A DNA stretch of 64,000 bases. Origin: Candidatus Roizmanbacteria bacterium (lineage in GTDB: Bacteria; Patescibacteriota; Microgenomatia; UBA1406; GWC2-37-13). Below the pieces are notes generated by a model. It had not been told where the DNA came from. It saw only the letters and a list, made by a program, of their open reading frames with translations, and made no database searches. Positions within the stretch are counted from its first letter, which is position 1; each line of letters begins with the position of its first letter. The position numbers and the translations under genes were made by a program. Where the stretch lies: contig JACQCK010000012.1 of NCBI GenBank assembly GCA_016201695.1, positions 1-64,000 on the forward strand. Direction: 5' to 3'. Positions 3,021 through 51,742 of this stretch are shown in pieces.

Positions 3021-3041
3021 CCGCCACTTCGGAGGTGGCGG
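3021..3041. repeat. GC-rich hairpin between NTase and tRNA-Leu
   Basis: CCGCCAC (3021-3027) and GTGGCGG (3035-3041) pair perfectly, and U-G plus U-A pairs can extend the stem into the loop. It lacks a T-tract on either strand and lies between two genes reading away from each other, so it is not an obvious terminator. A REP-like element or RNA processing hairpin is possible. Confidence 0.4.
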
Positions 3042-3063
3042 GAGATTTACTACAAGCAGATGG

Positions 3064-3069
3064 TATAAT
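3064..3069 (+). promoter_or_regulatory. -10 box of the tRNA pair
   Basis: TATAAT lies 10 nt before the first base of tRNA-Leu, the right distance for a start site a few bases upstream of the mature 5' end. No convincing -35 hexamer was found. Confidence 0.4.
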
Positions 3070-3079
3070 TTAACGGCAA

Positions 3080-3161
3080 GCAGGTATGGCGGAATTGGCA
3101 TACGCGCACGGCTTAGGACCGTGTCCCGTAAGGGGTGGAGGTTCAACTCCTCCTACCTGCA
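3080..3161 (+). tRNA. tRNA-Leu (UAG)
   Basis: The acceptor stem GCAGGTA/TACCTGC (3080-3086 with 3154-3160) is perfect, with discriminator A at 3161. The anticodon stem CACGG/CCGTG (3107-3111 with 3119-3123) encloses loop CTTAGGA, giving anticodon UAG at 3114-3116, which reads CUA and other CUN codons. The long variable arm is class II, as expected for tRNA-Leu. No CCA is encoded, so a CCA-adding enzyme is needed. tRNA-Ser follows after six bases, suggesting one transcript. Confidence 0.95.
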
Positions 3162-3167
3162 CGGCAA

Positions 3168-3254
3168 GGAAGGGTGCGAGAGTGGTTTAATCGGCACGCC
3201 TGGAAAGCGTGTGTGGCCGCAAGGCTACCGCGGGTTCGAATCCCGCCTCTTCCG
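3168..3254 (+). tRNA. tRNA-Ser (GGA)
   Basis: The acceptor stem GGAAGGG pairs with CTCTTCC (3168-3174 with 3247-3253, one G-U), with discriminator G at 3254 as in other tRNA-Ser. The anticodon stem CACGC/GCGTG encloses loop CTGGAAA, giving anticodon GGA at 3202-3204 for UCC/UCU. A long variable arm with TGGCCGCAAGGCTA marks it as class II. No CCA is encoded. Confidence 0.95.
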
Positions 3255-3262
3255 CTTTATTC

Positions 3263-3291
3263 TTGCATTTTTATCCCATGTCGCTTAATAT
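3263..3291 (+). promoter_or_regulatory. Promoter of the Xer-family gene
   Basis: TTGCAT at 3263-3268 and TAATAT at 3286-3291 are separated by 17 nt. Only five bases separate the -10 box from the ATG at 3297, so the predicted transcript would be leaderless. Confidence 0.5.
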
Positions 3292-3296
3292 AAAGT

Positions 3297-4238: not shown

Positions 4239-4240
4239 TA

Positions 4241-32520: not shown

Positions 32521-33297
32521 ATGAAGGTTATTATCCTGTGCGGCGGTACCGGGACACGATTAAAAGAAGAAACAGAGTTTAAGCCGAAACCGATGGTGTT
32601 TGTTGGAACAAAACCAATAATTTGGCATATTATGAAAATATACTCTTACTATGGGTATAACGATTTTATTCTGGCGCTGGGATATAAGGCAAACTACATT
32701 AAGGAATATTTTTTGAATCAGAAGGCATTCGGTTCTGACTTTACACTCGATACCGCTGATCATAAAACCCGATATTATCTTCGCAGTCGTGGGGAGGTGG
32801 ATAATTTTCGAATAACATTTGTCGATACCGGTCTGGATACGATGCCGGGTGAGCGGATTCTTCGTTGTCAAAAATATATTCCCAAAGAAGACCAGTTTTT
32901 TTTGGTAACTTATGGTGATGGAGTAACCGATCTCAACATTGCAAAGGTAGTTACATTTCATAAAAAACAAAAAACTATCGGCACGATAACAGGAGTCCAT
33001 CCACGTTCCAAGTACGGACTCGTTAAAGTAAATAAAAAAAACATGGTTCTTCATTTTGAGGAGAAGCCGGTACTTTCAGATTTGGTAAACGGAGGATATA
33101 TGGTTTTTGATCGGCGAATTTTTAAATACTTAAAACCTGGCGAAACAGAACATCCAGCGCTTGTCCGTTTATCTAAGTTAGGTCAACTGTCACTTTTTAA
33201 ACATGACGGCTTTTGGTATGCAGTAGACACCTATAAAGAACTCGAGGACCTTATTAAGTTATGGAAAACTGATCCTCCCTGGAAAGTATGGGACTAA
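32521..33297 (+). CDS. rfbF: Glucose-1-phosphate cytidylyltransferase
   Basis: The 258-residue protein has the signature GGTGTRL (8-14), KPKPM (21-25) and PIIWHIMKIYS, the last being specific for RfbF/DdhA rather than RmlA or GalU. YGDGVTD (131-137) holds the metal aspartate D133, and DGFWYAVDT the second acidic site. It makes CDP-glucose from CTP and glucose-1-phosphate, the first step to 3,6-dideoxyhexoses. It heads a ten-gene plus-strand operon; the CDP-glucose dehydratase follows four bases later. Confidence 0.92.
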   Translation: MKVIILCGGTGTRLKEETEFKPKPMVFVGTKPIIWHIMKIYSYYGYNDFILALGYKANYIKEYFLNQKAFGSDFTLDTADHKTRYYLRSRGEVDNFRITFVDTGLDTMPGERILRCQKYIPKEDQFFLVTYGDGVTDLNIAKVVTFHKKQKTIGTITGVHPRSKYGLVKVNKKNMVLHFEEKPVLSDLVNGGYMVFDRRIFKYLKPGETEHPALVRLSKLGQLSLFKHDGFWYAVDTYKELEDLIKLWKTDPPWKVWD

Positions 33298-33301
33298 AAA
33301 T

Positions 33302-34258
33302 ATGAAAATATTCAAAGATAAAAACATTTTGGTAACAGGAGGTACGGGATTTGTGGGATCACATATAGTTGAGGAATTAGTAAGGGTGGAAGCAAACGTA
33401 ACAACAACATTCCTTACTGCAAATCCGCGATCTTATTTTTTTACTAAAAAACTCGACAAAAAAGTCAACATGGCGCATGTTGATGTTGGCGACTATGAAT
33501 CAGTCCTTGATTTAGTAACAAAATTTAGTATCGATTACATCTTTCATCTGGCAGCTCAACCTCTTGTTGAAGTTGCTTATTATAATCCAAGAAGAACTTT
33601 GTATAGCAATATTTTGGGGACAGTTAACATACTCGAAAGTACTAGGCTATATCCTAAAATAAAGAGCGTTATCATAGCTTCTTCCGATAAAGCTTACGGT
33701 AAGCTAAAAAAGAATAAGTATGAAGAAGGCGATCCGCTTCTCGGAGACCATCCGTATGAGGCGTCAAAATCTTCGGCTGATTTGATCGCCCAATCTTACT
33801 TTAAGACATACGGGCTTCCTGTTATTATCACACGTTTTGGCAATATTTATGGGGAGGGCGATCTGAATTTTTCTCGAATTATCCCGGCGATTATGAAAGC
33901 AATTGTGAGAGGCACGACTCTTGATATAAGAAGCGATGGAAAATACGTGCGGGATTATTTATATGTGAAAGATGTTGTTACCGGTTATCTTTTGCTAGCC
34001 AAAAATATAGATGACGTTCGGGGTGAAGTATTTAATTTCGGTTCAAGGGAAACGCTTTCTGTACTAGAAATAGTAAATTTAATTTCTAAATATTTGAAAA
34101 AGAAAATAAATTATAAGATTTTAAATTGCGCCAAAAACGAAATTTCCTACCAGTCTATTGATTATTCAAAAATCCAAAAACGGTTACATTGGAATCCAAG
34201 GTTTAATTTGATAAAATCAATTATTGGAGTTTTTAATTGGTATAAGAAAATATTATGA
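33302..34258 (+). CDS. rfbG: CDP-glucose 4,6-dehydratase-like SDR
   Basis: The 318-residue SDR has TGGTGFVGS (12-20), FHLAAQPLVEVAY, S-S-D-K-A-Y at 127-132 and Y152/K156. The HLAAQPLV and SSDKAYG blocks with a following D-P-L-L-G-D segment are characteristic of RfbG/DdhB. It would form CDP-4-keto-6-deoxyglucose. It is somewhat short for RfbG (about 355), so another CDP-sugar dehydratase specificity is possible. It is coupled by an ATGA overlap to the second cytidylyltransferase-like gene. Confidence 0.85.
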   Translation: MKIFKDKNILVTGGTGFVGSHIVEELVRVEANVTTTFLTANPRSYFFTKKLDKKVNMAHVDVGDYESVLDLVTKFSIDYIFHLAAQPLVEVAYYNPRRTLYSNILGTVNILESTRLYPKIKSVIIASSDKAYGKLKKNKYEEGDPLLGDHPYEASKSSADLIAQSYFKTYGLPVIITRFGNIYGEGDLNFSRIIPAIMKAIVRGTTLDIRSDGKYVRDYLYVKDVVTGYLLLAKNIDDVRGEVFNFGSRETLSVLEIVNLISKYLKKKINYKILNCAKNEISYQSIDYSKIQKRLHWNPRFNLIKSIIGVFNWYKKIL

Positions 34259-35043
34259 AAGTTGTAATTCTCTGCGGTGGCGAGGGTATCCGTTTAAAAC
34301 ACGAAATTAATTTCATCCCAAAAGGTCTGGTATATATAGACGAAAAGCCAATAATATGGCATATAATGAAAAGGTACTCACAATTTGGATTTAAGGAGTT
34401 TGTTCTAGCGTTAGGAAAGAACGGAGATATGATAAGGGATTATTTTCTCAACTACGATCGTTACACTAATAATATAGGCTTTACCATAAGAGCACCGCAG
34501 CATATAACTCACTATGATCAGAGTCAAGAAGAAGATTGGAATGTTACCCTGGTGAACACCGGCGAATTCGGAAACACTGGTGTGAGACTCCAACGCTGTC
34601 AAAAATATATTGACGGAAGCGATTTTATGCTGACTTACTCTGATTGTCTATGCAGTGTTAACCTCCATAGCCTGTTAAAACATCATGAAAAAAGGAAGAA
34701 AACGGTTACAGTAACCGGTATTATGCCGCCTTTTCGCTACGGAGAATTTGTATTAAAAAATAATAGAGTGACTCAGTACAATGAAACTTCCACGCTGTCT
34801 GCCAAACAAGGTTTAGTCAATGGAGGGTACATGGTACTAAACAAAAACATTTTTGAATTTCTTACACCCTATAACGAATGTACTTTAGAAAATGAAGTCT
34901 TTAAGAAGTTGATTGTTGAAAAAGACCTCAACGTTTATAGACACGATGGATTTTGGCAGTGTTTAGATAACGATCGAGAATTTACTTATTTAAAAAAACT
35001 CTGTGAAAGTAACAAACGTTATTGGTTATCTAAAAATATTTAA
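34255..35043 (+). CDS. Divergent RfbF-paralogue nucleotidyltransferase
   Basis: This 262-residue protein is clearly paralogous to the rfbF product one gene upstream (shared PIIWHIMK, RCQKYI, LVNGGYMV and DGFW blocks). The signature is changed: GGEGIR replaces GGTGTR, IPKGL replaces KPKPM, and YSDC (128-131) replaces YGDG, though the metal aspartate D130 and lysine K23 stay. It should still bind NTP and a sugar-1-phosphate, but probably a different sugar, perhaps the modified product of this operon. Loss of activity is less likely given the intact frame and translational coupling. Confidence 0.8.
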   Translation: MKVVILCGGEGIRLKHEINFIPKGLVYIDEKPIIWHIMKRYSQFGFKEFVLALGKNGDMIRDYFLNYDRYTNNIGFTIRAPQHITHYDQSQEEDWNVTLVNTGEFGNTGVRLQRCQKYIDGSDFMLTYSDCLCSVNLHSLLKHHEKRKKTVTVTGIMPPFRYGEFVLKNNRVTQYNETSTLSAKQGLVNGGYMVLNKNIFEFLTPYNECTLENEVFKKLIVEKDLNVYRHDGFWQCLDNDREFTYLKKLCESNKRYWLSKNI

Positions 35044-35561
35044 TGAAAAAAGCGGTAATCATAACTGGACCTGGTTTTGAAGAGGCAGAGGTGATCTATC
35101 CTTTTTACAGGTTGATCGAAGCGGGTTTTTCCGTAGAAATAGCAACCAAAAATAAATCCGAAGTTAAGGGCAAACATGGACTACCCTTGACAGCTACAGT
35201 GGATGCGTTAAGTCTTGTGGAATCGGACTACCATTTAGTAGTTATACCAGGCGGATATGAGGCTCCAGACAGGGTTAGACAGATAAAGGCAGTGTTGGTT
35301 TTTATTAGAGAGATGAATAAAAAAAATAAAATAATTGCCGCGGTGTGTCACGGTCCGTGGGTTTTAATTTCGGCCGGCATAATGAAGGGCAGAAAGGCAA
35401 CTTGTTACAAAGGTTGTAAAGACGACCTTATTAATGCAGGAGCCGTTTACTTAGAGATAGATGTCGTAGTTGATGGAAATATAATCACCTCGCCTCATTT
35501 TAAGACGATGGCTCCCTGGATGAAAGCAATTATCCTTAAATTTGATCACAGTACCTCTTAA
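35043..35561 (+). CDS. DJ-1/PfpI-family protein
   Basis: The 172-residue protein has the complete PfpI nucleophile elbow A-V-C102-H103-G-P and an early glutamate pair FEEAE (12-16) that activates the cysteine. Relatives include YhbO/PfpI, reported as deglycases or glyoxalase-like enzymes acting on reactive carbonyls. In this operon it could protect against dicarbonyls or take part in keto-sugar chemistry; both are inference. The start overlaps the preceding stop in TAATG. Such a gene is unusual inside a sugar-nucleotide operon. Confidence 0.85.
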   Translation: MKKAVIITGPGFEEAEVIYPFYRLIEAGFSVEIATKNKSEVKGKHGLPLTATVDALSLVESDYHLVVIPGGYEAPDRVRQIKAVLVFIREMNKKNKIIAAVCHGPWVLISAGIMKGRKATCYKGCKDDLINAGAVYLEIDVVVDGNIITSPHFKTMAPWMKAIILKFDHSTS

Positions 35562-35580
35562 TAACCTTAAATGCGAAAAG

Positions 35581-36366
35581 ATGATAAAAAGGATTTTTGT
35601 TTCAGAAACAGACAGAAATAATCTATCGAAATTCAAAACAGTCGAGTTGCCTAAAGTCGATAAATCTAGTTATCGGGATATAGTGGTGTGTAAACCCTGG
35701 GGTTATGAGTATCTCATGTTTGAAAATGATTACGTTGCGATCTGGATTCTTCACCTCAAGAAAGGTCATGAAACATCAATGCACTGTCATCCGCGGAAAA
35801 AAAGCTCTCTTGTTGTTATTTCCGGAAAAGTGTTAACTTCGACTCTCACGGAATGGTTTGAATTTGGCCATTTACAAGGAATAATCTATGATGCAGGTGT
35901 TTTTCATTCAACCAAAGCCCTATCAGAAGAGACTTTTGTTATGGAGATAGAGACGCCCCCAATGAAGAAAGACCTGGTGCGCCTTAAAGATTCATATGGT
36001 CGCGAAACCCAAGGTTACGAAGGAAGGGACAAGCATTCGAGAGATGTTCATAAATTTAATTATATTTTTTTCGATAAAAAGGATGTAAAAAGTCAGACCG
36101 ACAAAAAAATCAATAACACAGTTGTTTCCATTAACAAATGTAGGACAAACTTTTTGGACCACGAATTTTCCCAACGAGCGAAGTTGAAGGAAAAAAGCAT
36201 TTATTGTATTATTGAGGAGAAAGTCATCGATCTTGAGCATCGTTCTTATTTTTGGGCAGGAGCGATATTTGATGCCGACGGTATGAAGAATAGGAAGAAT
36301 ATCAGACTTTTTAATAACTGTCTTTTGTTATCAGTCAGATTGGCAAAAGATGAAAAAGCTAGTTAA
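35581..36366 (+). CDS. Cupin protein (mannose-6-phosphate-isomerase-like)
   Basis: The 261-residue protein has a cupin barrel from about residue 35 to 140. CKPWGYE precedes it, as in ManC/Pmi-type cupins, and SMHCHPRK supplies the first metal histidines, with GVFHSTKAL the later one. A second, weaker barrel-like segment follows to the C-terminus. It may isomerise or epimerise a keto-sugar intermediate, or act on a phosphosugar. The ATG at 35581 is chosen over an upstream TTG that would overlap the PfpI gene. It overlaps the ThDP gene by 17 bp. Confidence 0.75.
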   Translation: MIKRIFVSETDRNNLSKFKTVELPKVDKSSYRDIVVCKPWGYEYLMFENDYVAIWILHLKKGHETSMHCHPRKKSSLVVISGKVLTSTLTEWFEFGHLQGIIYDAGVFHSTKALSEETFVMEIETPPMKKDLVRLKDSYGRETQGYEGRDKHSRDVHKFNYIFFDKKDVKSQTDKKINNTVVSINKCRTNFLDHEFSQRAKLKEKSIYCIIEEKVIDLEHRSYFWAGAIFDADGMKNRKNIRLFNNCLLLSVRLAKDEKAS

Positions 36367-38173
36367 ACTTTCAGACTACGTAGCCGAAACCCTCAAAAGT
36401 CACGGCGTAAAGTATATTTTCATGATTACCGGCGGAGGCGCTATGCACCTGAACGACTCATTTGGAAAAACCGAAGGATTGACTTACTTTTGTAATCACC
36501 ACGAACAAGCATCAGCAATTGCGGCAGAATGCTACGCGCGATTAACTAATAACATCGGAGTATGTAATGTGACGACAGGTCCCGGCGGGACAAACACTCT
36601 GACTGGAGTCATAGGCGCTTGGTTGGACTCTATTCCAATGCTGATTATCTCTGGCCAAGTAAAAAGAGAAGTCAGTATGTACTCATATCCCAATTTAAAG
36701 TTAAGGCAGCTGGGTATTCAAGAAATAGACACAATAAACCTAGTCAAAGCGGTAACAAAATATGCTAAGGCCGTTATGGATCCGCTGGAAATACGTTATG
36801 AGTTAGAAAAAGCTCTTTATATAGCTAAATCAGGGAGACCTGGCCCGGTTTGGCTTGATATTCCCCTTGACGTGCAGGCTGCCATGATCAATGTCAAGAA
36901 TCTTCGTCCATTTAATCAGAGAGAAGTCGAAAAAAAACCGAATCTTGAATACTTAAAAAAACAAGTTACAGAGGTACTTAATCTCATTAAAAAATCAAAA
37001 CGTCCGGTGATTGTAGGTGGCTTTGGACTGCGATTAGGAAATAGTGTCGAGCTTTTTTATAAGCTTATCAGAAAATTGAACATTCCCATAGTAACGTCAC
37101 TTAGTGCACACGACCTCATGTGGGAAACTCATCCTTTATATGGCGGAAGATTTGGTTTATACGGCACTCGCGGTGGTAATTTTGCCGTCCAAAACTCTGA
37201 CCTTCTTTTAGTTTTGGGGTGCCGGTTGACGCTATGGGAAACAGGTTATGAATTTAAAACATTCGCTCGAGAAGCAACAAAAATTATGGTTGATATAGAT
37301 AAAGCTGAGCTCAATAAACCCACATTTAAACCTGATGTTCCGATAAATTTTGACGTTAAATTATTTATAAATGAGACGTTGAGACAAATTAATAATCATA
37401 CGATTCCCGATTTTTCTTGGTGGTTAACAAAAACCAAACATTGGCATAAAAAGTATCCAAATATTTTACCGGAATATAAAAATGAAAATAAATATGTCAA
37501 CTCCTATTATTTAATTGGAGAGCTGTCAGATCTGATGACGAAAGATGATGTTATCGTGACTGGAAATGGAACGGCTTTCACCTGTACCTGTCAGTCTATC
37601 AAACTCAAAAAAGGCCAAAGACTGTGCATTAATATTGGATGTGCAACAATGGGGTACGATCTACCGGCAGCCATAGGAGCGTATCTTGCAACCAATAAGA
37701 AAAGAGTTGTTTTAATTACCGGAGACGGGAGTGTTCAGATGAACCTTCAGGAGCTACAGACTATAGTACATCACAAGATGCCTATAAAGATTTTTATTTT
37801 GAATAACGATGGTTATTTGGCTATCAGAATTACCCAGTCAAATTATTTTAAGAGAGTTTTTGGTTCTGATAAAAGAACGGGAGTAAGTTTCCCCAATATG
37901 TTAAAAATTGCCAAGGCTTATGGAATTCCTTCTTTGAGGATCGACAATCAAACAAATCTTAAAGCGAAACTAAGAAAGGTTCTTAATTCAAAAGGTCCAA
38001 TTATTTGTGAGATTATGATGCCACCCAATCAGCCGCTTTTCCCTAAGCCACAAGCCATTGTCAAATCAGACGGAACTTTAATTTTAAAGCCCTTGGAAGA
38101 TATGTCACCACTTTTACCGCGAAAAGAGTTCTTGGCGAACATGTTTATAAAACCGGTTAACGCTGATATATGA
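36350..38173 (+). CDS. ThDP-dependent acetolactate-synthase-like enzyme (YerE-like candidate)
   Basis: The 607-residue protein has all three ThDP-enzyme domains: PYR (about 5-180) with activating glutamate E52 in HHEQAS, the central domain (about 200-345), and PP with G458-D-G and N485-N, the cofactor-binding motif. Acetolactate-synthase relatives decarboxylate pyruvate and transfer the two-carbon unit. YerE, of the same superfamily, adds it to C4 of CDP-4-keto-3,6-dideoxyglucose in yersiniose synthesis; the CDP-sugar genes beside this one make that the leading hypothesis. A plain 2-oxo-acid decarboxylase remains possible. Confidence 0.87.
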   Translation: MKKLVKLSDYVAETLKSHGVKYIFMITGGGAMHLNDSFGKTEGLTYFCNHHEQASAIAAECYARLTNNIGVCNVTTGPGGTNTLTGVIGAWLDSIPMLIISGQVKREVSMYSYPNLKLRQLGIQEIDTINLVKAVTKYAKAVMDPLEIRYELEKALYIAKSGRPGPVWLDIPLDVQAAMINVKNLRPFNQREVEKKPNLEYLKKQVTEVLNLIKKSKRPVIVGGFGLRLGNSVELFYKLIRKLNIPIVTSLSAHDLMWETHPLYGGRFGLYGTRGGNFAVQNSDLLLVLGCRLTLWETGYEFKTFAREATKIMVDIDKAELNKPTFKPDVPINFDVKLFINETLRQINNHTIPDFSWWLTKTKHWHKKYPNILPEYKNENKYVNSYYLIGELSDLMTKDDVIVTGNGTAFTCTCQSIKLKKGQRLCINIGCATMGYDLPAAIGAYLATNKKRVVLITGDGSVQMNLQELQTIVHHKMPIKIFILNNDGYLAIRITQSNYFKRVFGSDKRTGVSFPNMLKIAKAYGIPSLRIDNQTNLKAKLRKVLNSKGPIICEIMMPPNQPLFPKPQAIVKSDGTLILKPLEDMSPLLPRKEFLANMFIKPVNADI

Positions 38174-39210
38174 CAAAATCAATAAGAAAGGAAAAGATTA
38201 AAAAGTTGCTGGGAACATTATTCAAAAAAATCAAAGTACGAAAGGAAATTTATAGCCCTGTAATCGATGGTCTAATCGAAACTTCTCTTCGTGGCGTTGA
38301 TTCACATGGCATTAGACTAGCGCCACATTATCTTGAGGCAACGCTACTTGGAAGAATTAACCCCGATCCTCAATTTGAGTTTTCCCAAACGAGAGCTTCG
38401 ACTATGAAGATAGATGCGGATAATACATACGGCATAACTGTGAGTACAATCGGGATGAATAAAGCCGTCAAGATGGCAAGAAAAACAGGAGTTGGGGTAG
38501 TAAGCATTTATAATTCTTCCCATTTTGGAGCCGCTGGGATCTACGGTCAAATAGCAGCGGAAAATGACATGATCGGATTTTCAATGACACATGTTGAAGA
38601 TTTGGTTGCACCATATGGTGGTACAAAACCATTCTTCGGTACAAATGCATATTGTTTTACAGCGCCAATGGCAGATGAACGCCCCTTTATTTTGGATATG
38701 GCGACTTCGGCAATCAGTTTTAATATGCTTAGAATGCATCAAAGTAAAATTAAAGCGCTTAAATTAGGCTTAGCTATTGATAAACATGGTAAATTCACTA
38801 TAAATCCAAACGAGGCAGTTACTTTGACACCATTTGGAGGTTATAAAGGTTATGGAATTCAAGCGCAAGTCGAAATTTTGTGCAGCATGCTGACTGGGAT
38901 GCCTTTTGGACCATTTATCACGCATATGTTTCCTCTAACTATGGAAAAAAGACGCCTCGCTCATTTCTTGATGGCGATTGATATTGAAGCATTTATTGAT
39001 ATTAAAACTTTTAAAAAAAGAATGAAGGAGATGGCAGAAATAGTTAGAAAGATGACACCATCAGAAGGATTTTCAGAAGTAAGACTGGCTGGAGACCGAA
39101 GCAAACGTGAATATATAAAGAGACTAAAAGAGGGAATTCCTATAACTAAAGAGACCATCGATGACTTTCAAAGAGTTGCCCCGAAGATCGGATTAGAGAT
39201 TAATTTATGA
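38170..39210 (+). CDS. Ldh2/malate-lactate dehydrogenase-family oxidoreductase
   Basis: The 346-residue protein belongs to the Ldh_2 (YlbC/YiaK) family, with the hallmark L-R-G-V-D-S-H-G-I near residue 42 carrying the catalytic histidine, and a glycine-rich PFGGYKGYG block. Members reduce 2-oxo acids, diketogulonate or imines with NAD(P)H, using a fold distinct from other lactate dehydrogenases. Its ATGA overlap with the ThDP gene suggests it acts on that enzyme's product. I know no standard dideoxysugar pathway that uses this family, which makes it a notable part of the operon. Confidence 0.87.
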   Translation: MTKSIRKEKIKKLLGTLFKKIKVRKEIYSPVIDGLIETSLRGVDSHGIRLAPHYLEATLLGRINPDPQFEFSQTRASTMKIDADNTYGITVSTIGMNKAVKMARKTGVGVVSIYNSSHFGAAGIYGQIAAENDMIGFSMTHVEDLVAPYGGTKPFFGTNAYCFTAPMADERPFILDMATSAISFNMLRMHQSKIKALKLGLAIDKHGKFTINPNEAVTLTPFGGYKGYGIQAQVEILCSMLTGMPFGPFITHMFPLTMEKRRLAHFLMAIDIEAFIDIKTFKKRMKEMAEIVRKMTPSEGFSEVRLAGDRSKREYIKRLKEGIPITKETIDDFQRVAPKIGLEINL

Positions 39211-40103
39211 AAAAAATATTACTGACGGGCGCGAGTGGTTTTTTTGGACAAAACTTCCTCGAACAAAAAAATAAGAAATATATTATTGCCTCCCCTACTC
39301 ATCAGGAGCTTGATCTAGTAGACACAAAAGCAGTGGACGAGTATTTTAGAAAGCATGGCCCATTTGACGCAGTGGTTCACGCGGCAACGGTCGGTGGGAA
39401 GCGATACGAAAAAGGGATGAGTAATGTTGTTGAAACAAATCTACGTATTTTTTTTAATATCGAAAGAAATAAGAATCACTATAAAAAAATGATTCATTTC
39501 GGTACAGGGGCAGAATATGATAAATCACATGATATTAAAAAAATAAAAGAGACAGATTTCGGCCGACTGATACCGACTGATGGCTTTGGATTCTATAAAT
39601 ATATTTGCTCAAAATATATAGAGAGCATTAAAAATATATACCATTTAAGAGTATTCAGTTTATTTGGCCGATATGAAGATTATAAAGTCAGATTTATCTC
39701 TAACATAATTTGTAAATACCTACTGAAATTACCCCTAACAATAATGCGTAATAGTTATTATGACTTTCTTAATATTGATGACTTTATCAAGATTATTGAT
39801 TACTTTATCAACGAAAAGCCTAAATATAATTTCTATAACGTCGGTTCGGGACAAAAAATCACTTTATTATCAATTGCCAAAAAAATTAATTCTCTAGGCG
39901 ATTATTCTCTTCCGATTAGTATTCAAAAAAGTGGTCTAAATAACGAATATACTTGTGATAACAGTCGACTAATCAAAGAATTGAAAAACTTCAAATTTAG
40001 TCGTATTGACGATGCGATTAACGAGTTATACCATTGGTACAGAAAAAATTTTAAGCGCATTGATAAAAAGGCAATTATTGAAGATTCCTACAATAAGGCA
40101 TGA
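39207..40103 (+). CDS. WcaG-like SDR (NDP-sugar reductase candidate)
   Basis: The 298-residue protein starts with TGASGFFGQNF and has H-A-A-T-V-G-G, then FGTGAEYD and GFGFYKYICSK, a Y-x3-K pair in the position used by GDP-fucose synthase-like reductases. It lacks a full-length epimerase C-terminal domain but keeps YNVGSG. In yersiniose synthesis YerF reduces the branched ketone; this gene could play that part. It is joined by ATGA overlaps on both sides. Its codons are strongly AT-rich compared with the first 24 kb. Confidence 0.8.
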   Translation: MKKILLTGASGFFGQNFLEQKNKKYIIASPTHQELDLVDTKAVDEYFRKHGPFDAVVHAATVGGKRYEKGMSNVVETNLRIFFNIERNKNHYKKMIHFGTGAEYDKSHDIKKIKETDFGRLIPTDGFGFYKYICSKYIESIKNIYHLRVFSLFGRYEDYKVRFISNIICKYLLKLPLTIMRNSYYDFLNIDDFIKIIDYFINEKPKYNFYNVGSGQKITLLSIAKKINSLGDYSLPISIQKSGLNNEYTCDNSRLIKELKNFKFSRIDDAINELYHWYRKNFKRIDKKAIIEDSYNKA

Positions 40104-40777
40104 ACGTAATAAAGCCAAAAGGCATGTTGTTCGATATGGATGGTGTAATTACTATCTTAACAAATAATATGCGTGCATGGCGCATAGCTTTTAGAGCAAA
40201 AGCAGGAATCGAAATGGCAGATGACGATTGGTATAGATTAGAGGGAATGTCACCGCAGGAGATATCTGAAAAGATCTTAATAAATAACAATCATGTAGTA
40301 ACTCCTGAACTGGTTAAAGAAATTGCTGATTTAAAACAACTGATTTTTAATAACATTTCTGCTAAGAAAAAGGTTGAGTTATACCCTTTTGTTCAAGAAA
40401 TGCTTACTTTTCTTAAGCGCCATAATGTTAAGGTTGGATTAGTTACGGGATCGGTACTTGAACGGGTTAAAGGTAGCTTATCTAAAGAAGTTTTAGAGAT
40501 GTTTGACGCTATTGTGACCGCAGATGAGGTGAGGCAGAGGAAGCCTTCACCGGATCCATTTTTAAGAGGTGCCTCTTTATTGGGGCTTACTACAGGCGAA
40601 TGTTGGGCAGTCGAAAATGCCCCTTTAGGGGTGATTTCTGCAAGAAAAGCTGGGTGCTTCTGCGTTGCTTTAATGACGACATTAAGAGATAAAAGTAAAT
40701 TATCAAATGTCGGTGCGAACGTAATTTTTGATTCGCACAAAGACTTACTGGATCATTTCCGGCAAACATTCAAATGA
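40100..40777 (+). CDS. HAD-superfamily hydrolase (beta-phosphoglucomutase-like)
   Basis: The 225-residue protein has motif I D12-M-D14-G, motif II in VGLVTGS, and a late VENAPLGVISARKAG block typical of beta-phosphoglucomutase and phosphatase-type HAD subfamily I enzymes. A cap domain inserts at about 20-85. It would dephosphorylate or isomerise a sugar phosphate. With a second nucleotidyltransferase in the same operon, processing of a sugar phosphate before activation is a reasonable guess. Confidence 0.85.
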   Translation: MNVIKPKGMLFDMDGVITILTNNMRAWRIAFRAKAGIEMADDDWYRLEGMSPQEISEKILINNNHVVTPELVKEIADLKQLIFNNISAKKKVELYPFVQEMLTFLKRHNVKVGLVTGSVLERVKGSLSKEVLEMFDAIVTADEVRQRKPSPDPFLRGASLLGLTTGECWAVENAPLGVISARKAGCFCVALMTTLRDKSKLSNVGANVIFDSHKDLLDHFRQTFK

Positions 40778-41706
40778 AGAAACTTATCTCCGTTTGCATC
40801 CCAACTTATAACCGGGCTAAATTACTGGATAATTGTCTTTCTACTATTACTTCCCAGTTTAGCAATAGAAATGTTTATCAGGCTGTAGAAATAGTAATTT
40901 CCAACAATAATAGCGTCGATAATACAGAAAAAGTAATTAGCAACTATATGAAGAAATACTCAAACATAAGATGCTTCAAAAATAAAAAAACTATTCAAGC
41001 TGATAAAAACATCATTGCTACCGCGGCCTATGCCAAAGGAGAGTATATATGGTTTTTTGGCGACGACGACGCTCACTATTCTTGGTCGCTTAAAACAATG
41101 ATAAAAGTTATTCATAAATATTATCCCGACGCCGTAATTTGTAATCTCGATATGTGTTCCAAAGACGGAAGTAAAATTTTGGATAGGAACATGATCAATC
41201 TTAGGAAAGACTTCTTTGCTAAAACTAAAAAGGAGTTATTTACTTTTTTAGAATCAAAGTTTTTTATGCATCTTGATTGGTATATAACCTGTATGTCCAA
41301 TACGATTGTCAGTAGAAAGTTATTTGATGAAAACATTGATCAAGTCATGAAGTTTTATGACCCCAAAAAAGCTAATTTTCTTCACTCCGGATTGATTTTT
41401 TACAACGACTCCGATTATAAAGTCTATTTGATTAGTAAACATTTAGTCATTTATCGAGGTTACAATATTCTTTTCGGTCCTGACGAGCGAACTACAAAGT
41501 CACAATACCTAGCTTATCTTTATAAAATGTTAAAAAGGCATAACGATACTATTTATACAATTAACAAAAAAAACATGTCCTTAAATTTTGCATTTCTTCT
41601 TTATTTAAAAAATTTAACCAGAGATTTAAGATCATTCTTAGTTAAATATATTGACTTTGACTTCAGCGACTTACTAATAAAATTATTTCATAAGAAAGAA
41701 ACGTAA
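40774..41706 (+). CDS. GT2 glycosyltransferase ending the CDP-sugar operon
   Basis: The 310-residue protein opens ISVCIPTYNRA and has IVISNNNSVD and FFGDDDAHY, the last holding the D-D-D metal site. It is the only glycosyltransferase of the ten-gene operon and so the best candidate to use its product. The acceptor is unknown. It starts in an ATGA overlap with the HAD gene. Confidence 0.87.
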   Translation: MKKLISVCIPTYNRAKLLDNCLSTITSQFSNRNVYQAVEIVISNNNSVDNTEKVISNYMKKYSNIRCFKNKKTIQADKNIIATAAYAKGEYIWFFGDDDAHYSWSLKTMIKVIHKYYPDAVICNLDMCSKDGSKILDRNMINLRKDFFAKTKKELFTFLESKFFMHLDWYITCMSNTIVSRKLFDENIDQVMKFYDPKKANFLHSGLIFYNDSDYKVYLISKHLVIYRGYNILFGPDERTTKSQYLAYLYKMLKRHNDTIYTINKKNMSLNFAFLLYLKNLTRDLRSFLVKYIDFDFSDLLIKLFHKKET

Positions 41707-45681: not shown

Positions 45682-46620
45682 ATGAATATTTTAGTAACCG
45701 GCGGTACCGGCTTCATCGGCAGTAATCTTTTGGATAAGCTTCTTAAAAAGAAGTATAACGTGGTTTTATTGAAGAGAAAGACCTCCAATACCTGGAGAAT
45801 AAGGCATATCACCAATAAAATACGGATGTATGATATTGATCTCTCAACCGACTATGACGCAATAATCAAAAAGGAAAAAACAAAAGTGATAATCCATCTT
45901 GCGGGTAAATATATAAAACAACATAAGAGCAGGGAAGAATTAAAAGAATTGATCGACTCAAATATAACTTTCCCCTCGCTTTTATTAGATAGTGCGGTAA
46001 GGAACGACGTTAAAATATTTGTCAATACCGGTACTTTTTTTGAGTATGAATTAAAAGGTAAAATAGACGAGAATTCACTTCGGAAACCATATGATTATTA
46101 CGCGGTTACTAAGATGGCCTTTGAGACTATCCTTAAATTCTATTCGGCTAATTCAAATATGAAAACGGCAACCTTGAAGCTTTTTTCCCCTTATGGTGAA
46201 AAGGACAATGAAAAGGTAATTCCGCTAATAATTAAGTGTTTTCTAAAACGTCAGCCCCTTTTTCTTACTAAAGGAAATCAAAAACTAAGTTTTACCTATG
46301 TTGATGATATAATCGTGGCTTATTTAAAAGCACTCGATTACCTTAATAATATCAAGGCTCCTTATTATGCGAACTTTAATATCGGGAGCAATAAAAGCGT
46401 TTCGATAAAAGAAATCGTTTCTCTGGTCCGACAGCTATGCAAACAAAACGACATGGTAAATTTCGGAGCGGTTAATAACCCGAAAGACGAGGGGTTGAAT
46501 ATAACCTGTGATAGTTCATTGGCACAGAGTCTCCTAAAATGGCGGGCGCAGTACTCTATAAAGAGCGGGCTTAAGAAGACGATTAAGTATTATAAAAACG
46601 AGCTTTTAAATAAAGCTTAA
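45682..46620 (+). CDS. CDP-dideoxyhexose reductase-like SDR (RfbJ/RfbS/AscF type)
   Basis: The 312-residue SDR has TGGTGFIGS, VNTGTFFEYE in the place of the usual S-S motif, and Y-Y-A-V-T-K as the catalytic Y-x3-K. NTGTFFEY and the LFSPYGEKD block resemble CDP-abequose and CDP-paratose synthases, which reduce CDP-4-keto-3,6-dideoxyglucose. Direct proximity to rfbH (18 bp) supports that role. Which C4 epimer is made cannot be told. About 230 bp upstream hold several AT-rich TATAAT-like strings but no gene. Confidence 0.8.
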   Translation: MNILVTGGTGFIGSNLLDKLLKKKYNVVLLKRKTSNTWRIRHITNKIRMYDIDLSTDYDAIIKKEKTKVIIHLAGKYIKQHKSREELKELIDSNITFPSLLLDSAVRNDVKIFVNTGTFFEYELKGKIDENSLRKPYDYYAVTKMAFETILKFYSANSNMKTATLKLFSPYGEKDNEKVIPLIIKCFLKRQPLFLTKGNQKLSFTYVDDIIVAYLKALDYLNNIKAPYYANFNIGSNKSVSIKEIVSLVRQLCKQNDMVNFGAVNNPKDEGLNITCDSSLAQSLLKWRAQYSIKSGLKKTIKYYKNELLNKA

Positions 46621-46626
46621 ATTCAA

Positions 46627-46632
46627 TATAAT
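46627..46632 (+). promoter_or_regulatory. TATAAT box close to the rfbH start
   Basis: TATAAT ends six bases before the ATG at 46639. It suggests a separate, leaderless rfbH transcript, although the upstream SDR is only 18 bp away. Confidence 0.4.
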
Positions 46633-46638
46633 ATCGCC

Positions 46639-48009
46639 ATGCCCTACCAAACCCGGTTTAATCCTCTTTCTCGACAGGAAACTAAAGAGCTTGTTAATTT
46701 AAGAGAACAAATAGGAGATAAGATAAAGAAATTTTACAACTTGAAGTTCAAAAAAGATATTATAATTCCGGGAGTTGATCTGCTTGAAACCGCCGGAAAG
46801 TACATCGGCGAAGAAGAATTAATAATGGGCACTAACGCGGTACTTGACGGATGGTGGACAGAAGGGAAGTACGCGGACGAGTTTGCGAGACAGTTGACCA
46901 AGTATTTAGGAGTACGATACTGTATTTTTGTCAACTCCGGCTCATCGGCCAACTTGATTGCATTTGCCTCACTCACTTCACACATTCTCGGAAAAAAGCG
47001 GATACACCCGGCCGATGAGGTTATTACCGTTGCCGCGGCCTTTCCAACTACCGTAAACCCAATTATTCAGTTGGGATGTACGCCGGTATTTGTTGATATT
47101 GATCGGAAAACATTAAATATCGATTGGTCAAAATTGGAAAAAGCCATCTCCGCTCGGACAAAAGCGATCATGATAGCGCACACGCAAGGCAATCCCTTTA
47201 ACCTGGAAAAAGTAGTCGAGTTTGCAAAAAAACACAAGTTATGGTTGGTTGAAGATTGTTGTGATGCTTTGGGAGCCGAATATAAAGGTCAGAAAGTCGG
47301 CACATTTGGAGACGTGGCGACATTGAGTTTCTATCCGGCTCATCAGATGACGACAGGAGAGGGCGGCGCGGTCCTGACTAACAACCCTTTTATTTATCGG
47401 ATAGCAAAATCTTTTCGTGATTGGGGACGTGATTGTTGGTGTGAGACGGGTGAGGACGATGCCTGTCGCCGGCGCTTCAACTGGAAATTTAAAAATCTGC
47501 CCGACGGATACGATCACAAATTTGTCTATTCCCACCTGGGATATAATCTGAAGTTTACCGATATCCAGGCGGCAATCGGACTGGCACAATTAAAGCGTAT
47601 TCCGCAGTTAATTGAAGCAAGAAGACGCAACTACTTGCTGCTTAGAAATAAGCTGGTAAAATTTAATAAGTATTTTACTTTTCAAGAGGCGGAAAAAAAC
47701 TCTGTTCCTTCCTGGTTTGGATTTATGTTGACGCTAACGAAGGCGTGCGGCTTTAACGTAGCCGACATCGCCAGCTATTTGAATAAGAAAAAAATAGCGA
47801 CGCGGCCTCTCTACTGCGGGAACATCACACTCCATCCGTATTTTGATAACCTGATATGTCGAGTGATCGGCGAGTTAAAAAATACAAACTACGTAATGAA
47901 TCACACCTTTTGGATCGGTATCCATCCGAAACTGGCAACAAAACACATCGATTACATTACTAAATGTATAGAAGAATATCTTATGCCAAAAAGAGCACGA
48001 AAAAGTTAA
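46639..48009 (+). CDS. rfbH: CDP-4-keto-6-deoxyglucose 3-dehydrase (E1)
   Basis: The 456-residue protein has the DegT/DnrJ/EryC1 fold, but the PLP lysine is replaced by H235 in YPAHQMTTGEGG, so it binds PMP and dehydrates instead of transaminating. Cysteines C208, C266, C268 and C276 fit the C-X57-C-X1-C-X7-C [2Fe-2S] motif reported for Yersinia E1. It removes the C3 hydroxyl of CDP-4-keto-6-deoxyglucose in the route to 3,6-dideoxyhexoses. The E3 reductase that supplies electrons is not in the window. It is placed between a reductase-like SDR and an RmlC-like cupin. Confidence 0.93.
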   Translation: MPYQTRFNPLSRQETKELVNLREQIGDKIKKFYNLKFKKDIIIPGVDLLETAGKYIGEEELIMGTNAVLDGWWTEGKYADEFARQLTKYLGVRYCIFVNSGSSANLIAFASLTSHILGKKRIHPADEVITVAAAFPTTVNPIIQLGCTPVFVDIDRKTLNIDWSKLEKAISARTKAIMIAHTQGNPFNLEKVVEFAKKHKLWLVEDCCDALGAEYKGQKVGTFGDVATLSFYPAHQMTTGEGGAVLTNNPFIYRIAKSFRDWGRDCWCETGEDDACRRRFNWKFKNLPDGYDHKFVYSHLGYNLKFTDIQAAIGLAQLKRIPQLIEARRRNYLLLRNKLVKFNKYFTFQEAEKNSVPSWFGFMLTLTKACGFNVADIASYLNKKKIATRPLYCGNITLHPYFDNLICRVIGELKNTNYVMNHTFWIGIHPKLATKHIDYITKCIEEYLMPKRARKS

Positions 48010-48088
48010 GAGATTGGGTGAAAGCTTAAAACTTTGGGCAAAAACTGTATTCAAAAACGCCCGATTATTACTCATTAAGGCGATTTAG

Positions 48089-48094
48089 TATAAT
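48089..48094 (+). promoter_or_regulatory. TATAAT box close to the cupin start
   Basis: TATAAT ends six bases before the ATG at 48101, within the 91-bp gap after rfbH. No good -35 was found. Confidence 0.45.
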
Positions 48095-48100
48095 TGCGTT

Positions 48101-48553
48101 ATGATACACGGAGTAAAAATTAAACCGCTTGGCAAAATAGCCGATGAGCGAGGAATGATTATGCACATGCTACGAAAAGACGATCCGGCCTTCAAGAAAT
48201 TTGGTGAAATATATTTCTCGATGGTATATCCGGGCGTAGTGAAGGGCTGGCACTATCATGAAAAAATGACGCTGAATTATGCAGTTATCCAAGGCATGAT
48301 TAAACTTGTAATGTACGATAATCGGTTAAATTCTCCAACGAAAGGTGAACTGATGGAAGTATATACCGGCGAAGCAAATTATGCCTTAATTACCATTCCG
48401 CCTAAAGTTTGGAACGGAGTAAAAGGGATAGGCTTAACACCGGCAATAATCGCCAACTGCAGCGATATTCCGCATGACCGGTCGGAAATAAAAAGAAAGG
48501 ATCCGTTAAAAAATGATCTAATTGATTATTCCTGGGACATTATTTTTCGGTAA
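48101..48553 (+). CDS. RmlC-like NDP-keto-sugar epimerase (AscE candidate)
   Basis: The 150-residue cupin follows the RmlC pattern: D-E-R-G near residue 12-15, GVVKGWHYH with the catalytic/substrate-contacting histidines, and a PPKVWNGVKG loop. RmlC makes C3/C5 inversions of dTDP-4-keto-6-deoxyglucose; AscE is a related 5-epimerase in CDP-ascarylose synthesis. Next to rfbH and a reductase, an AscE-like role would give the L-configured dideoxyhexose ascarylose. It is shorter than classic RmlC (about 180), so a 3,4-ketoisomerase is another option. Confidence 0.78.
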   Translation: MIHGVKIKPLGKIADERGMIMHMLRKDDPAFKKFGEIYFSMVYPGVVKGWHYHEKMTLNYAVIQGMIKLVMYDNRLNSPTKGELMEVYTGEANYALITIPPKVWNGVKGIGLTPAIIANCSDIPHDRSEIKRKDPLKNDLIDYSWDIIFR

Positions 48554-49493
48554 GAGCCGGATAGTTTTTAACTTCTAGTTTTTGCAGGATAGACTCAAAA
48601 TCCAGCGCCAGATAACGAAGATAATTATTAAGGACACTACTCCTGACTCTTATCCTTTTTCTGACTGCATAAGGACAGGTAATCAATCCAATCAGTATAC
48701 CCGTCAAACCATATAAAAGAGCCTTTAATGATCTTCTGGTTATAACACTATAGAAAAGATGCAGCAATAACCGTACCGCTAAAACCGGAAATAACTTATA
48801 AGGAAAGTATTTTAGGTAGAACCATAATGAGTTTCTCATGAAAAAAAAGTATGAGTTATACACAACGGTATGTTTGTTGAGGTGAAGGTGCTGAACTATA
48901 ATGTTACTTTCGAGATGAATAAAATAACCGGCATTCGCAATACGCATTCCCAGATCGTCTTCAGTATGATACATAAAAAAATCAGCGTCGTAATAACCGG
49001 ATTTCGAAAAAATCGACTTTCTAAAAGCACAGCCGTTGCCGGAAAAAGTAGGAAAATTGTGTCGGTCTAAAAGATTATGTTTGTTAGGAGAGCGATATAA
49101 GTATGTTTTAGTTTGAGTATCAAAAATTTCGAAAGTCAGAATGCCGACTGATTTCGGCTTCTTTCTAAAAGTCTCATAAACTTTTGTCAATGTATCAGGA
49201 TAGACCAAAGAATCATCATCCAGTTGGACGACAAATTGACCATTGGCATTCGCCAACCCGAAGGAAAGAGCGTAGATTCCGGTTCCATTTGACATGCTGA
49301 AGTAACGGACGCTTGGAAATTTAAAAATGATTGTTTCCTTAAGATAGGCGCTGTCACTATTGTCCATAACGAGTACTTCGTATCCGCTGAAATCCGATCT
49401 AAAAATAGATCGCAAACAACTAAGCAATTCTTTCTTTCTGCTGTCGCGAGTGGCAATAACCATGCTTATGTGAACAATTGAGGACGGTTTCAT
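48540..49493 (-). CDS. GT2 glycosyltransferase, rhamnosyl/galactofuranosyl-like
   Basis: The 317-residue GT-A enzyme opens ISMVIATRDSRKKEL and has LVMDNSDS, QLDDDSLVY (D-D-D metal site) and YHTEDDLGMRI. Two hydrophobic segments near 225-270 suggest membrane attachment. It shows the F-S-G-N-G-C-A-F-R-K block of the rhamnosyltransferase group. The 3' ends of this gene and the RmlC-like gene overlap by 14 bp. Confidence 0.86.
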   Translation of the reverse strand: MKPSSIVHISMVIATRDSRKKELLSCLRSIFRSDFSGYEVLVMDNSDSAYLKETIIFKFPSVRYFSMSNGTGIYALSFGLANANGQFVVQLDDDSLVYPDTLTKVYETFRKKPKSVGILTFEIFDTQTKTYLYRSPNKHNLLDRHNFPTFSGNGCAFRKSIFSKSGYYDADFFMYHTEDDLGMRIANAGYFIHLESNIIVQHLHLNKHTVVYNSYFFFMRNSLWFYLKYFPYKLFPVLAVRLLLHLFYSVITRRSLKALLYGLTGILIGLITCPYAVRKRIRVRSSVLNNYLRYLALDFESILQKLEVKNYPALTEK

Positions 49494-50248
49494 TATGTTT
49501 TGGAAAAAAGATAATTTGAAAGGTTTTTTTCAAAATTGTTTGCCTCATCTGGAGTGCCAATCGTAGTCCAGATTTTTGTTTTTACTGTTCGAATGATACT
49601 ACCGTTCTGTATCAGGTAGTTGTACAGAGGACACATATAAAACTCGTTATTGTAGCGTAGATTTCGTCTGATCATATCCTTGGCCGCAGAAACAAAATGA
49701 CTGCCTTTGGTAAAGTAATATAAGCCGATCGCCGCGTGAGAAGAAATTACCTGCTTTTCCGCCGTTTGTAGAGCGTTTCCTTGCGTATCAAGTTTTACAT
49801 AGGAATAAGCGGGGTTGGCGCTTTCGTAAATTGGTATCAGTCCTCCCCAGTCGCTTTTGATCGCTTTGTTTCTTTGATCGAAAAATTCAGGACAGATAAA
49901 ATACTGATCGCAGTCGCAAGTGAGCATGTCCTCGTCGGTATTGATAAGATCGGCGGCAGTTAAGACGGTACATACAGGCCCTTCTGTTACCTTCTTAATT
50001 AGCTTGACCGTACACTCGTTGCCCGCGATTGTTTTAAGAAAAGCGCTGATCTTATGAGACTGTTCATATTGCGCAAGCGTAATAAAAATAAAATCTTGCG
50101 ACTTTATTTTCGGAAACATTCTTTTTATACTCAAAATCGGCCATTCGATCATTGGCCTTCCGGCGACAGAAATAAGAGGCTTGGGGAGGGTAAATCCTTT
50201 CTTTCGAAAACGTAGGCCGCGGCCGGCAAGTGGAATTATAATTTTCAT
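49493..50248 (-). CDS. Sugar/polyol-phosphate nucleotidyltransferase-like protein
   Basis: The 251-residue protein starts MKIIIPLAGRGLRFRKKG with LPKPLISVAGRPMIEW, the NTP_transferase signature in a variant common in capsule clusters. TCDCDQYF holds the likely metal aspartate. It lacks the C-terminal beta-helix. It shares a base with the next gene (stop/start) and directly abuts the GDPD gene upstream (TAAATG). Context suggests it activates a non-standard phosphorylated unit, unproven. Confidence 0.8.
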   Translation of the reverse strand: MKIIIPLAGRGLRFRKKGFTLPKPLISVAGRPMIEWPILSIKRMFPKIKSQDFIFITLAQYEQSHKISAFLKTIAGNECTVKLIKKVTEGPVCTVLTAADLINTDEDMLTCDCDQYFICPEFFDQRNKAIKSDWGGLIPIYESANPAYSYVKLDTQGNALQTAEKQVISSHAAIGLYYFTKGSHFVSAAKDMIRRNLRYNNEFYMCPLYNYLIQNGSIIRTVKTKIWTTIGTPDEANNFEKNLSNYLFSKT

Positions 50249-51001
50249 TTAGAGATATGACTGTAATTTTATAGGTTCGTCGGTGCAGATGCCATCGATC
50301 CCCCAGTCGATTAAATGTTTCCACGTACTTTCAAAACCTGAACGCGCGAGCGGATGGTCAAGAGTTCGATGAACGTCCGGCGACACGGCAAACACCTTTT
50401 CCTTATGTTTTCGCACCTCGCGGATAAAAGAGCTACTATAAAGTTTCCTATATTCGGCCGCCCAGACAAAATCAAAATTTCTGTTGTGTTTCACTTCCGA
50501 CCATAAATAAACGGTTGGCGCGAATTTGTTCTCAGAGACAGTGCAGGCGATTTTGATCGATTTGTCTATCCGTTTAAGTTTGGCGGCCGCTTCTTGAGTC
50601 AAATCAAAAACAAAGGCATTGTGGTATAAATCGTATTCTTTCCAATACCGTGCCAGTATTTTGAGGCCATCATTTGTTTGGCTATCGGACTTTAAATGGA
50701 TCGCATGGAGCCTTTTTTTATATTTTTTTATTTCTTGTATAACTGTCAAAAAGGAAACGAATTTGGCTGCACTGTCCTTATAAGTTCGTGAGACGCACTC
50801 TTTTAGGGTTAGGGAACTGACCGGAGTTGAATCTTTGTTCAGCCTGGTGAAGGTTTCGTCATGCATGACAATAAAATCGCCGTTTCGAGTTAGGCGAAGA
50901 TCGGTTTCTAGGCAAAAACCAGTTTTAAGAGCAATGGAAAGAGCAGGAAGACTATTCTCCGGATACTTATGAAGCAGGCCGCGATGAGCAAAAATGAACA
51001 T
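50249..51001 (-). CDS. Glycerophosphodiester phosphodiesterase-family protein (GDPD)
   Basis: The 250-residue TIM-barrel protein has all GDPD motifs: H6-R-G, P-E-N-S at 14-17, E32-x-D34 for the metal, and H47-D48 in VMHDET. These enzymes hydrolyse glycerophosphodiesters to glycerol-3-phosphate and an alcohol. There is no signal peptide, so it should be cytoplasmic. Its position between two nucleotidyltransferase-like genes is unusual and points to a phosphodiester or polyol-phosphate intermediate in this module. A TATAAT box lies eight bases before its ATG. Confidence 0.87.
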   Translation of the reverse strand: MFIFAHRGLLHKYPENSLPALSIALKTGFCLETDLRLTRNGDFIVMHDETFTRLNKDSTPVSSLTLKECVSRTYKDSAAKFVSFLTVIQEIKKYKKRLHAIHLKSDSQTNDGLKILARYWKEYDLYHNAFVFDLTQEAAAKLKRIDKSIKIACTVSENKFAPTVYLWSEVKHNRNFDFVWAAEYRKLYSSSFIREVRKHKEKVFAVSPDVHRTLDHPLARSGFESTWKHLIDWGIDGICTDEPIKLQSYL

Positions 51002-51009
51002 ACGATATA

Positions 51010-51015
51010 ATTATA
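51010..51015 (-). promoter_or_regulatory. TATAAT box close to the GDPD start
   Basis: The minus strand reads TATAAT, eight bases, then the ATG at 51001; it overlaps the end of the upstream nucleotidyltransferase-like gene. Confidence 0.35.
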
Positions 51016-51742
51016 AGGCGTGAGTGTTATTTTTATAGCCGGTGATGTCAGAAGGGGTTCCCCATATATATTTAATGATATTGTGTGAACAAATGACTTT
51101 TTGGTGAGTTTTTATCAGTTCGTTAAAAACCGGTCCGACATAAAACGTTTTTTCAAACAAATATCGTTTATTCTTTATCATTTTCTTGGCGTATCTTACA
51201 AAAAGAGAGCCTTTAGAAAAATAATAAAGCCCCATCGTGGCGAGTTGTGGTTTATCAACGTAAATTTTCTCCTTAAGTTCACTAAAATTGCCACGCGGAT
51301 CCGTATAGGCATATCCCCAGGGGCGGTCTGATATATTGCCGTAAGCGACGGGGAGGATGGCGGCTGCTTTTTGTTTGACAGTTTTAATATCCCGGTAAAG
51401 TTGATCAATATCACGAATCACGTCAGCGAGTTCAATCATCAGATCTCTATTTGAGTTGATTATCGACTCTAATGCTTTAAGTATCGAACACGGTGCGCCG
51501 GCGGTGGATTCCTCTAGTATTTTTGTAACGGCGTTTCTGCCGAAAAGCGTTTGTAATCGTTTTTGAACATTATGTTTTCTTTCGTCTTCTTTGAGAATTA
51601 CAAAAAAAATTCGGTCCATTGGTTTTAACTGATGCCGTTCAACGATATACTCGATAAGTAATTTTTTTCCGATCCGAACGAATGGTTTATACTGTTTCCG
51701 GAATTGAGGATTTTTGCCGGCCAGGGGAATGACAAGGTTCAT
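51011..51742 (-). CDS. Divergent nucleotidyltransferase-like protein
   Basis: The protein of 243 residues begins MNLVIPLAGKNPQFRKQYKPF, aligning with the nucleotidyltransferase two genes downstream, but the G-x-G-x-R loop is altered to K-N-P-Q-F-R and the region of the metal aspartate reads LADVIRD. GAPCSILKAL and PWGYAYTD are retained family blocks. It may have changed specificity or act as a partner subunit. The ATG at 51742 gives an ATGA overlap with the preceding dehydrogenase gene, better than an upstream start. Confidence 0.7.
   Translation of the reverse strand: MNLVIPLAGKNPQFRKQYKPFVRIGKKLLIEYIVERHQLKPMDRIFFVILKEDERKHNVQKRLQTLFGRNAVTKILEESTAGAPCSILKALESIINSNRDLMIELADVIRDIDQLYRDIKTVKQKAAAILPVAYGNISDRPWGYAYTDPRGNFSELKEKIYVDKPQLATMGLYYFSKGSLFVRYAKKMIKNKRYLFEKTFYVGPVFNELIKTHQKVICSHNIIKYIWGTPSDITGYKNNTHAL

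Follow-up and report, generated by a model that had tools for sequence, protein, structure and literature searches.

A conserved patescibacterial operon, very probably for attaching a carbon side chain to a rare CDP-activated sugar

The window analyzed here is a stretch of 64,000 nucleotides from contig JACQCK010000012.1 of a Candidatus Roizmanbacteria genome (assembly GCA_016201695.1), and the system in question is an operon of ten plus-strand genes at 32521-41706, named A to J in this report (Table 1). The operon is conserved, and its enzymes very probably attach a carbon branch to a rare sugar activated with cytidine diphosphate (CDP). The product is probably a C4-branched 3,6-dideoxy CDP-sugar for a surface glycan, with the odd genes C, D, E, G, and I serving as a module that supplies the donor of the branch. 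Computation assigned A, B, F, G, and the separate rfbH gene (K) to their families and revealed a conserved gene order in which one dehydrogenase has been swapped for another.

Gene F encodes a thiamine diphosphate (ThDP) enzyme that Pfam and NCBIfam place in the acetolactate synthase superfamily, with every NCBIfam score below its cut-off. The superfamily placement would suit an acetolactate synthase that serves branched-chain amino acid synthesis and lies in a glycan cluster by chance, an explanation that we regard as very improbable. The closest solved chain to F was 8RPH (E 9.5e-131), compared to 3e-81 for the best PDB entry named acetolactate synthase; 8RPH is JanthE, a characterized YerE-like carboligase whose coupling partners are 2-keto acids and ketones (PMC12188165). 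Maximum-likelihood phylogeny set F, its relatives, and JanthE apart from plant and bacterial acetolactate synthases, with support of 100/98 for the fork uniting JanthE with 22 F rows and 99/97 for the three F proteins of this operon type; the clustering with housekeeping acetolactate synthases that a sequence-only reading of the window had named as its refutation was not seen. The C-terminal signature PLEDxxPxLxR or a near variant was found in most F relatives and in JanthE and was absent from acetolactate synthases. F keeps the catalytic Glu (E52), the ThDP motif GDGS at 458, and NN, and carries Trp (W296) where a conserved Arg is expected. Ketol-acid reductoisomerase (IlvC) was not found in the source genome and was present in 14 of 14 control genomes; no paralogue of F was found in the source genome. 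Because the PDB ranking, the tree, the Trp at the Arg position, the missing IlvC, and the conserved glycan synteny agree, F is, on sequence grounds, not a housekeeping acetolactate synthase. Its kinship places it with the YerE-like ThDP carboligases, and ligation to a tertiary alcohol is predicted. JanthE, from Janthinobacterium sp. HH01, is about 37% or less similar to F and differs from it in the ThDP motif (CDG vs. GDG) and at P293 (W296 in F). A plasmid search for F relatives returned, among the matches listed, acetolactate synthases.

The likely acceptor was deduced from A, B, and K. We favor the view that A and B act like RfbF and RfbG, without strict equivalog status. The closest PDB entry to B was the CDP-glucose 4,6-dehydratase 1RKX, and SDK and YxxxK are kept. 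In K, the motif FYPAH carries the His that replaces the pyridoxal phosphate Lys (FYPAHQMTTGEGGAV), and the DCWC cysteines are kept. A search for the E3 reductase yielded two candidate genes with a PF00175 reductase domain elsewhere in the genome. The window thus appears to hold the route to CDP-4-keto-3,6-dideoxyglucose apart from the E3 reductase. This sugar is the one branched by both YerE and ErwE (PMC12247030). Because A, B, and RfbH are present and the characterized relatives YerE and ErwE use it, CDP-4-keto-3,6-dideoxyglucose is the likely acceptor of F. The earlier proposal of CDP-sugar synthesis with a YerE-like carboligase is supported, and the placing of RfbH in the window goes beyond it. 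A short-chain dehydrogenase/reductase (SDR) gene (45682-46620), rfbH, and an RmlC/FdtA-like cupin gene stand in a row at 45682-48553; as a guess, this SDR could divert the RfbH intermediate to an unbranched 3,6-dideoxyhexose.

The order A-B-C-D-E-F-H-I was shared with two other metagenome-assembled genomes (MAGs), from Roizmanbacteria (L018) and Curtissbacteria (L019), at 35-71% protein identity; F itself was 71% and 58% identical, respectively. The sequence-only reading would have been undermined by a gene order kept in no relative, and here the order was kept in both, so that the arrangement is beyond chance. L018, from the same family, is the nearest operon-bearing relative of the source genome, which is patescibacterial and 985 kb in size; a further locus (L062, from G697) represents the same Roizmanbacteria operon as L018. 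In both L018 and L019, rfbH shares the operon's strand and lies a few genes past the HAD gene. L019 reads A-B-C-D-E-F-G-H-I, whereas L018 reads A-B-C-D-X-E-F-H-I and has no Ldh2 gene in the operon; X encodes a D-isomer-specific 2-hydroxyacid dehydrogenase (PF02826, PF00389) unrelated to Ldh2. The same operon is thus served by enzymes of two unrelated families, both of which interconvert 2-hydroxy and 2-keto acids, and this is the strongest hint to the role of G. Since the glycosyltransferase gene J is not at that place in the relatives, the core is the nine genes A to I. The operon is rare: among 373 genomes sampled from the class, 4 had a strong match to cupin E, namely, the three operon-bearing ones and G582, and within the family the figure was 2 of 72. 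In L018, a full-length transketolase gene (2980-5034) lies 31 bases upstream of rfbF, whose start is damaged there by assembly Ns.

Gene calls and Pfam and NCBIfam profile searches confirmed the layout first proposed for the window, with all ten genes in a single direction and overlaps at seven of the nine junctions. With the cupin started at ATG 35581, the junctions from A to J measure +4, -4, -1, +19, -17, -4, -4, -4, and -4; five of the seven overlaps are ATGA, and the gaps of 4 and 19 bp stood as given. The family names held for most genes, the exception being the cupin, which passed no Pfam cut-off (best weak match Cupin_2, E 0.003).

To place the odd genes in context, the genes around 27 F-bearing loci were clustered, and cluster representatives were scanned with profiles. 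Enzymes that form 2-keto acids recurred, namely, DmpF/DmpG, HpaI, and NeuB. Acylating acetaldehyde dehydrogenase (DmpF) and 4-hydroxy-2-oxovalerate aldolase (DmpG) lie upstream of F in L070, L073, and L074, with both above their equivalog cut-offs in L074; HpcH/HpaI aldolases lie near F in L021, L024, L037, L066, and L070; and NeuB adjoins F in L068 and lies about 4 kb away in L076. In L070 (4149-11471; G318:C9), there are two F paralogues, one after DmpF/DmpG and the other after an HpaI aldolase; the DmpF gene there is broken into two frames that overlap. As a base-rate check, 380 genomes sampled from the phylum were screened for the DmpF family; it turned up in 3, each time beside F. Aldolases of the DmpG and HpaI types produce 4-hydroxy-2-oxo acids. 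ErwE favors 4-hydroxy-2-oxo acids (PMC12247030), and this preference is consistent with our inference, from the computed gene association, that the neighboring 2-keto-acid enzymes feed F. The odd genes of the operon have functional counterparts beside other F relatives, which the sequence-only reading had not noted. A dehydroquinate-synthase-like gene also recurs near F (L037:13202-14275, with relatives in L020, L024, L066, L067, and L068), often accompanied by a FabG-type SDR and an HpaI aldolase.

JanthE residue numbering was mapped onto the F alignment, with all five published residues matching. Mutation at V121 and at P293 of JanthE affected activity in both cases (PMC12188165). At these two positions, the three operon F proteins carry I and W (I123 and W296 in the window), the DmpFG-linked proteins I/V/L and A/S/G, and the Lachnospiraceae-type proteins, with most loci of the HpaI-SDR-dehydroquinate-synthase kind, the pair D/R. 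The covariation with donor context is suggestive at the sequence level but confounded by descent.

Among described systems, the yersiniose A pathway of Yersinia pseudotuberculosis (RfbF, RfbG, RfbH, YerE, YerF) has the same acceptor route and likewise combines a ThDP carboligase with an SDR, YerE and YerF being set beside the operon by description only. The present operon differs in adding the conserved genes C, D, E, G, and I. The yersiniose route is not known to include PfpI, cupin, HAD, Ldh2, or a second nucleotidyltransferase. The donor for yersiniose is pyruvate, whereas the YerE-like enzymes ErwE (erwiniose) and MMAR_2332 (caryophyllose) prefer functionalized longer 2-keto acids with the same kind of acceptor (PMC12247030); these two, likened to F by description, are not known to use a PfpI/cupin/HAD/Ldh2 module. 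A literature search, limited in reach, found nothing on the gene combination of the operon.

Among the odd genes, D, E, and I occur together repeatedly, and strong cupin matches always had PfpI and HAD genes adjacent. D conserves the DJ-1 catalytic residues E16, C102, and H103, and its best PDB matches were DJ-1 homolog D and PH1704. E is weakly like cupins of the mannose-6-phosphate isomerase type and conserves KPWGYEY, TSMHxH, and YGR; ATG 35581 is the start common to its homologues, with TTG 35542 also open, and a structure predicted from three sequences had a mean pLDDT (predicted local distance difference test) of 39.4. I most resembles the BT2127 pyrophosphatase (3QU2); beta-phosphoglucomutase was rejected, as I has Asn and Pro at what we take to be the hinge His and cap Arg places of the mutase. 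In C, YGDG has become Y(S/A)DC in all three clade members and the EKP glucose-1-phosphate motif is lost, while GGxGxR, PK, and both putative metal Asp are retained. The trio of D, E, and I was found in two other settings. In L064 (4892-15931; G582:C15), it follows a two-subunit E1-alpha/E1-beta ThDP enzyme, with genes overlapping or abutting and without F, in an operon that also holds a GHMP kinase, a nucleoside triphosphate (NTP) transferase, and a phosphoenolpyruvate-utilizer-like protein. That pair is of the same general kind as the two-subunit alpha-keto-acid-dehydrogenase-type sugar-branching enzymes such as KbDH of kibdelomycin, which belong to a ThDP superfamily different from that of F; no close rfbF-rfbG pair was seen in L064, and an RfbH-like gene (38%) lies upstream of it, in L084. 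On the Rouxiella badensis plasmid NZ_CP060593.1, a cupin-PfpI-HAD trio occurs twice (L086:42230-44313 and L082:10543-12263), once with an intact HAD gene and once with a shortened one. The trio is thus a unit; in two of its three settings it accompanies a ThDP enzyme, from a different superfamily each time. Relatives of cupin E were found neither in phages nor, in an uncontrolled negative, in 198 phylum genomes around G730, and the Rouxiella trio had no match in Escherichia coli genomes.

In the pathway that we propose, A would make CDP-glucose, B would turn it into CDP-4-keto-6-deoxyglucose, and RfbH with a reductase encoded elsewhere would strip the C3 hydroxyl. F would decarboxylate a 2-keto acid and attach the resulting acyl anion at the C4 ketone; this would leave a tertiary alcohol bearing a keto side chain, which the SDR H would then reduce. 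Characterized relatives suggest both C4 as the site and this role for H. D, E, G, I, and C would supply a nonstandard 2-keto acid as donor. In the simplest version, the HAD protein and the cupin would prepare a dephosphorylated, isomerized precursor, PfpI would convert a 2-oxoaldehyde to a 2-hydroxy acid by glyoxalase III chemistry, and Ldh2 (or the D-2-hydroxyacid dehydrogenase in L018) would oxidize the latter to the 2-keto acid. Gene neighborhoods point to donor supply, a role in processing the branch being less likely; what is proposed for the identity of the donor, for the order of steps within the module, and for C is guesswork. An undescribed branched or acyl-modified product had been envisaged from the sequence alone, of which the branched form is supported and nothing points to an acyl-modified sugar.

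An unlikely competitor is yersiniose-like synthesis with pyruvate as the donor, in which A, B, K, F, and H would be the whole branching pathway and D, E, G, I, and C would act after ligation, for example, by isomerizing or oxidizing the acyloin. The trio in L064, which follows an E1-type ThDP enzyme in an operon where no hydroxyacid dehydrogenase was seen, suits the processing of a ThDP product, and the Lachnospiraceae-type loci (rfbF-rfbG-rfbH-F-SDR-glycosyltransferase, with no 2-keto-acid maker in between) need no donor enzyme and would fit such a pyruvate-using pathway. However, the substrates known for the Ldh2 and D-2-hydroxyacid dehydrogenase families are small 2-hydroxy and 2-keto acids rather than nucleotide sugars, many F relatives have evident 2-keto-acid makers beside them, and F carries I123/W296 against D/R in the Lachnospiraceae type.

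Less probable still are two pathways in one operon for the same glycan, in which A, B, F, H, and K would make the branched sugar and C, E, I, D, and G would yield another nucleotide sugar or a sugar acid. That C is a second nucleotidyltransferase with its own clade would agree with this, as would the trios without F in L064 and Rouxiella and the GHMP kinase and NTP transferase beside the former. Yet B is separated from F by C, D, and E, and F from H by G, an arrangement kept in three genomes at 35-71% identity, and among strong matches the cupin was not found without adjoining PfpI and HAD genes.

Several observations weigh against the donor-supply pathway for a C4-branched 3,6-dideoxy sugar. 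The RfbF and RfbG models were top-scoring for A and B yet stayed under their equivalog cut-offs (Table 1), and RfbH lies outside the operon, 5 kb downstream and behind four minus-strand genes. JanthE forms a long branch whose exact placement is unsure, and the kinship of F was judged against JanthE only, not against the YerE or ErwE sequences. The scheme leaves the role of C unexplained. No 2-hydroxyacid dehydrogenase was found among the L064 operon genes and no ThDP enzyme near the Rouxiella trio, so that hydroxyacid oxidation does not go with the trio in every case.

Table 1. Genes of the operon and the separate rfbH gene, with positions in the window
Gene and product	Position	Strand	Evidence
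A, RfbF-type glucose-1-phosphate cytidylyltransferase	32521..33297	+	TIGR02623 259 bits (cut-off 300)
B, CDP-glucose 4,6-dehydratase-like SDR	33302..34258	+	best PDB 1RKX; TIGR02622 203 bits (cut-off 278)
C, divergent RfbF paralogue, own clade of three	34255..35043	+	motif changes, tree
D, DJ-1/PfpI family protein	35043..35561	+	TIGR01382 above cut-off
E, divergent cupin with C-terminal extension	35581..36366	+	conserved motifs; no Pfam cut-off passed
F, YerE/JanthE-type ThDP carboligase	36350..38173	+	PDB 8RPH E 9.5e-131; tree; motifs
G, Ldh2-family 2-hydroxyacid dehydrogenase	38170..39210	+	PF02615 326.7 bits; PDB 1V9N, 2X06
H, SDR	39207..40103	+	near F in 11 loci
I, HAD hydrolase, BT2127-like	40100..40777	+	best PDB 3QU2 inorganic pyrophosphatase; NF053653 134.5 bits (cut-off 245)
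J, GT2 glycosyltransferase	40774..41706	+	position not kept in relatives
K, RfbH (CDP-4-keto-6-deoxyglucose 3-dehydratase)	46639..48009	+	NF011936 637.5 bits (cut-off 423)

Further downstream, the minus strand at 49493-53843 carries two NTP transferases, a glycerophosphodiester phosphodiesterase, and two zinc-type dehydrogenases, a set reminiscent of polyol-phosphate activation.

The extra enzymes around F resemble an exchangeable kit, so far undescribed, by which the side chain would be made or processed. We tentatively suggest, with somewhat less than even confidence, that the side chain comes from a 2-keto acid unused in described branched sugars, by a new route through PfpI, cupin, HAD, and an interchangeable 2-hydroxyacid dehydrogenase, and that the YerE-like class diversifies through exchange of donor modules while the CDP-sugar acceptor stays constant. 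If donor-making enzymes adjoin the carboligase, the neighboring genes would predict the side chain, and many orphan enzymes would become testable. If true, small-genome Patescibacteria without branched-chain amino acid synthesis would still keep elaborate branched-sugar pathways, and these would add biocatalysts that form tertiary alcohols with new donor ranges.

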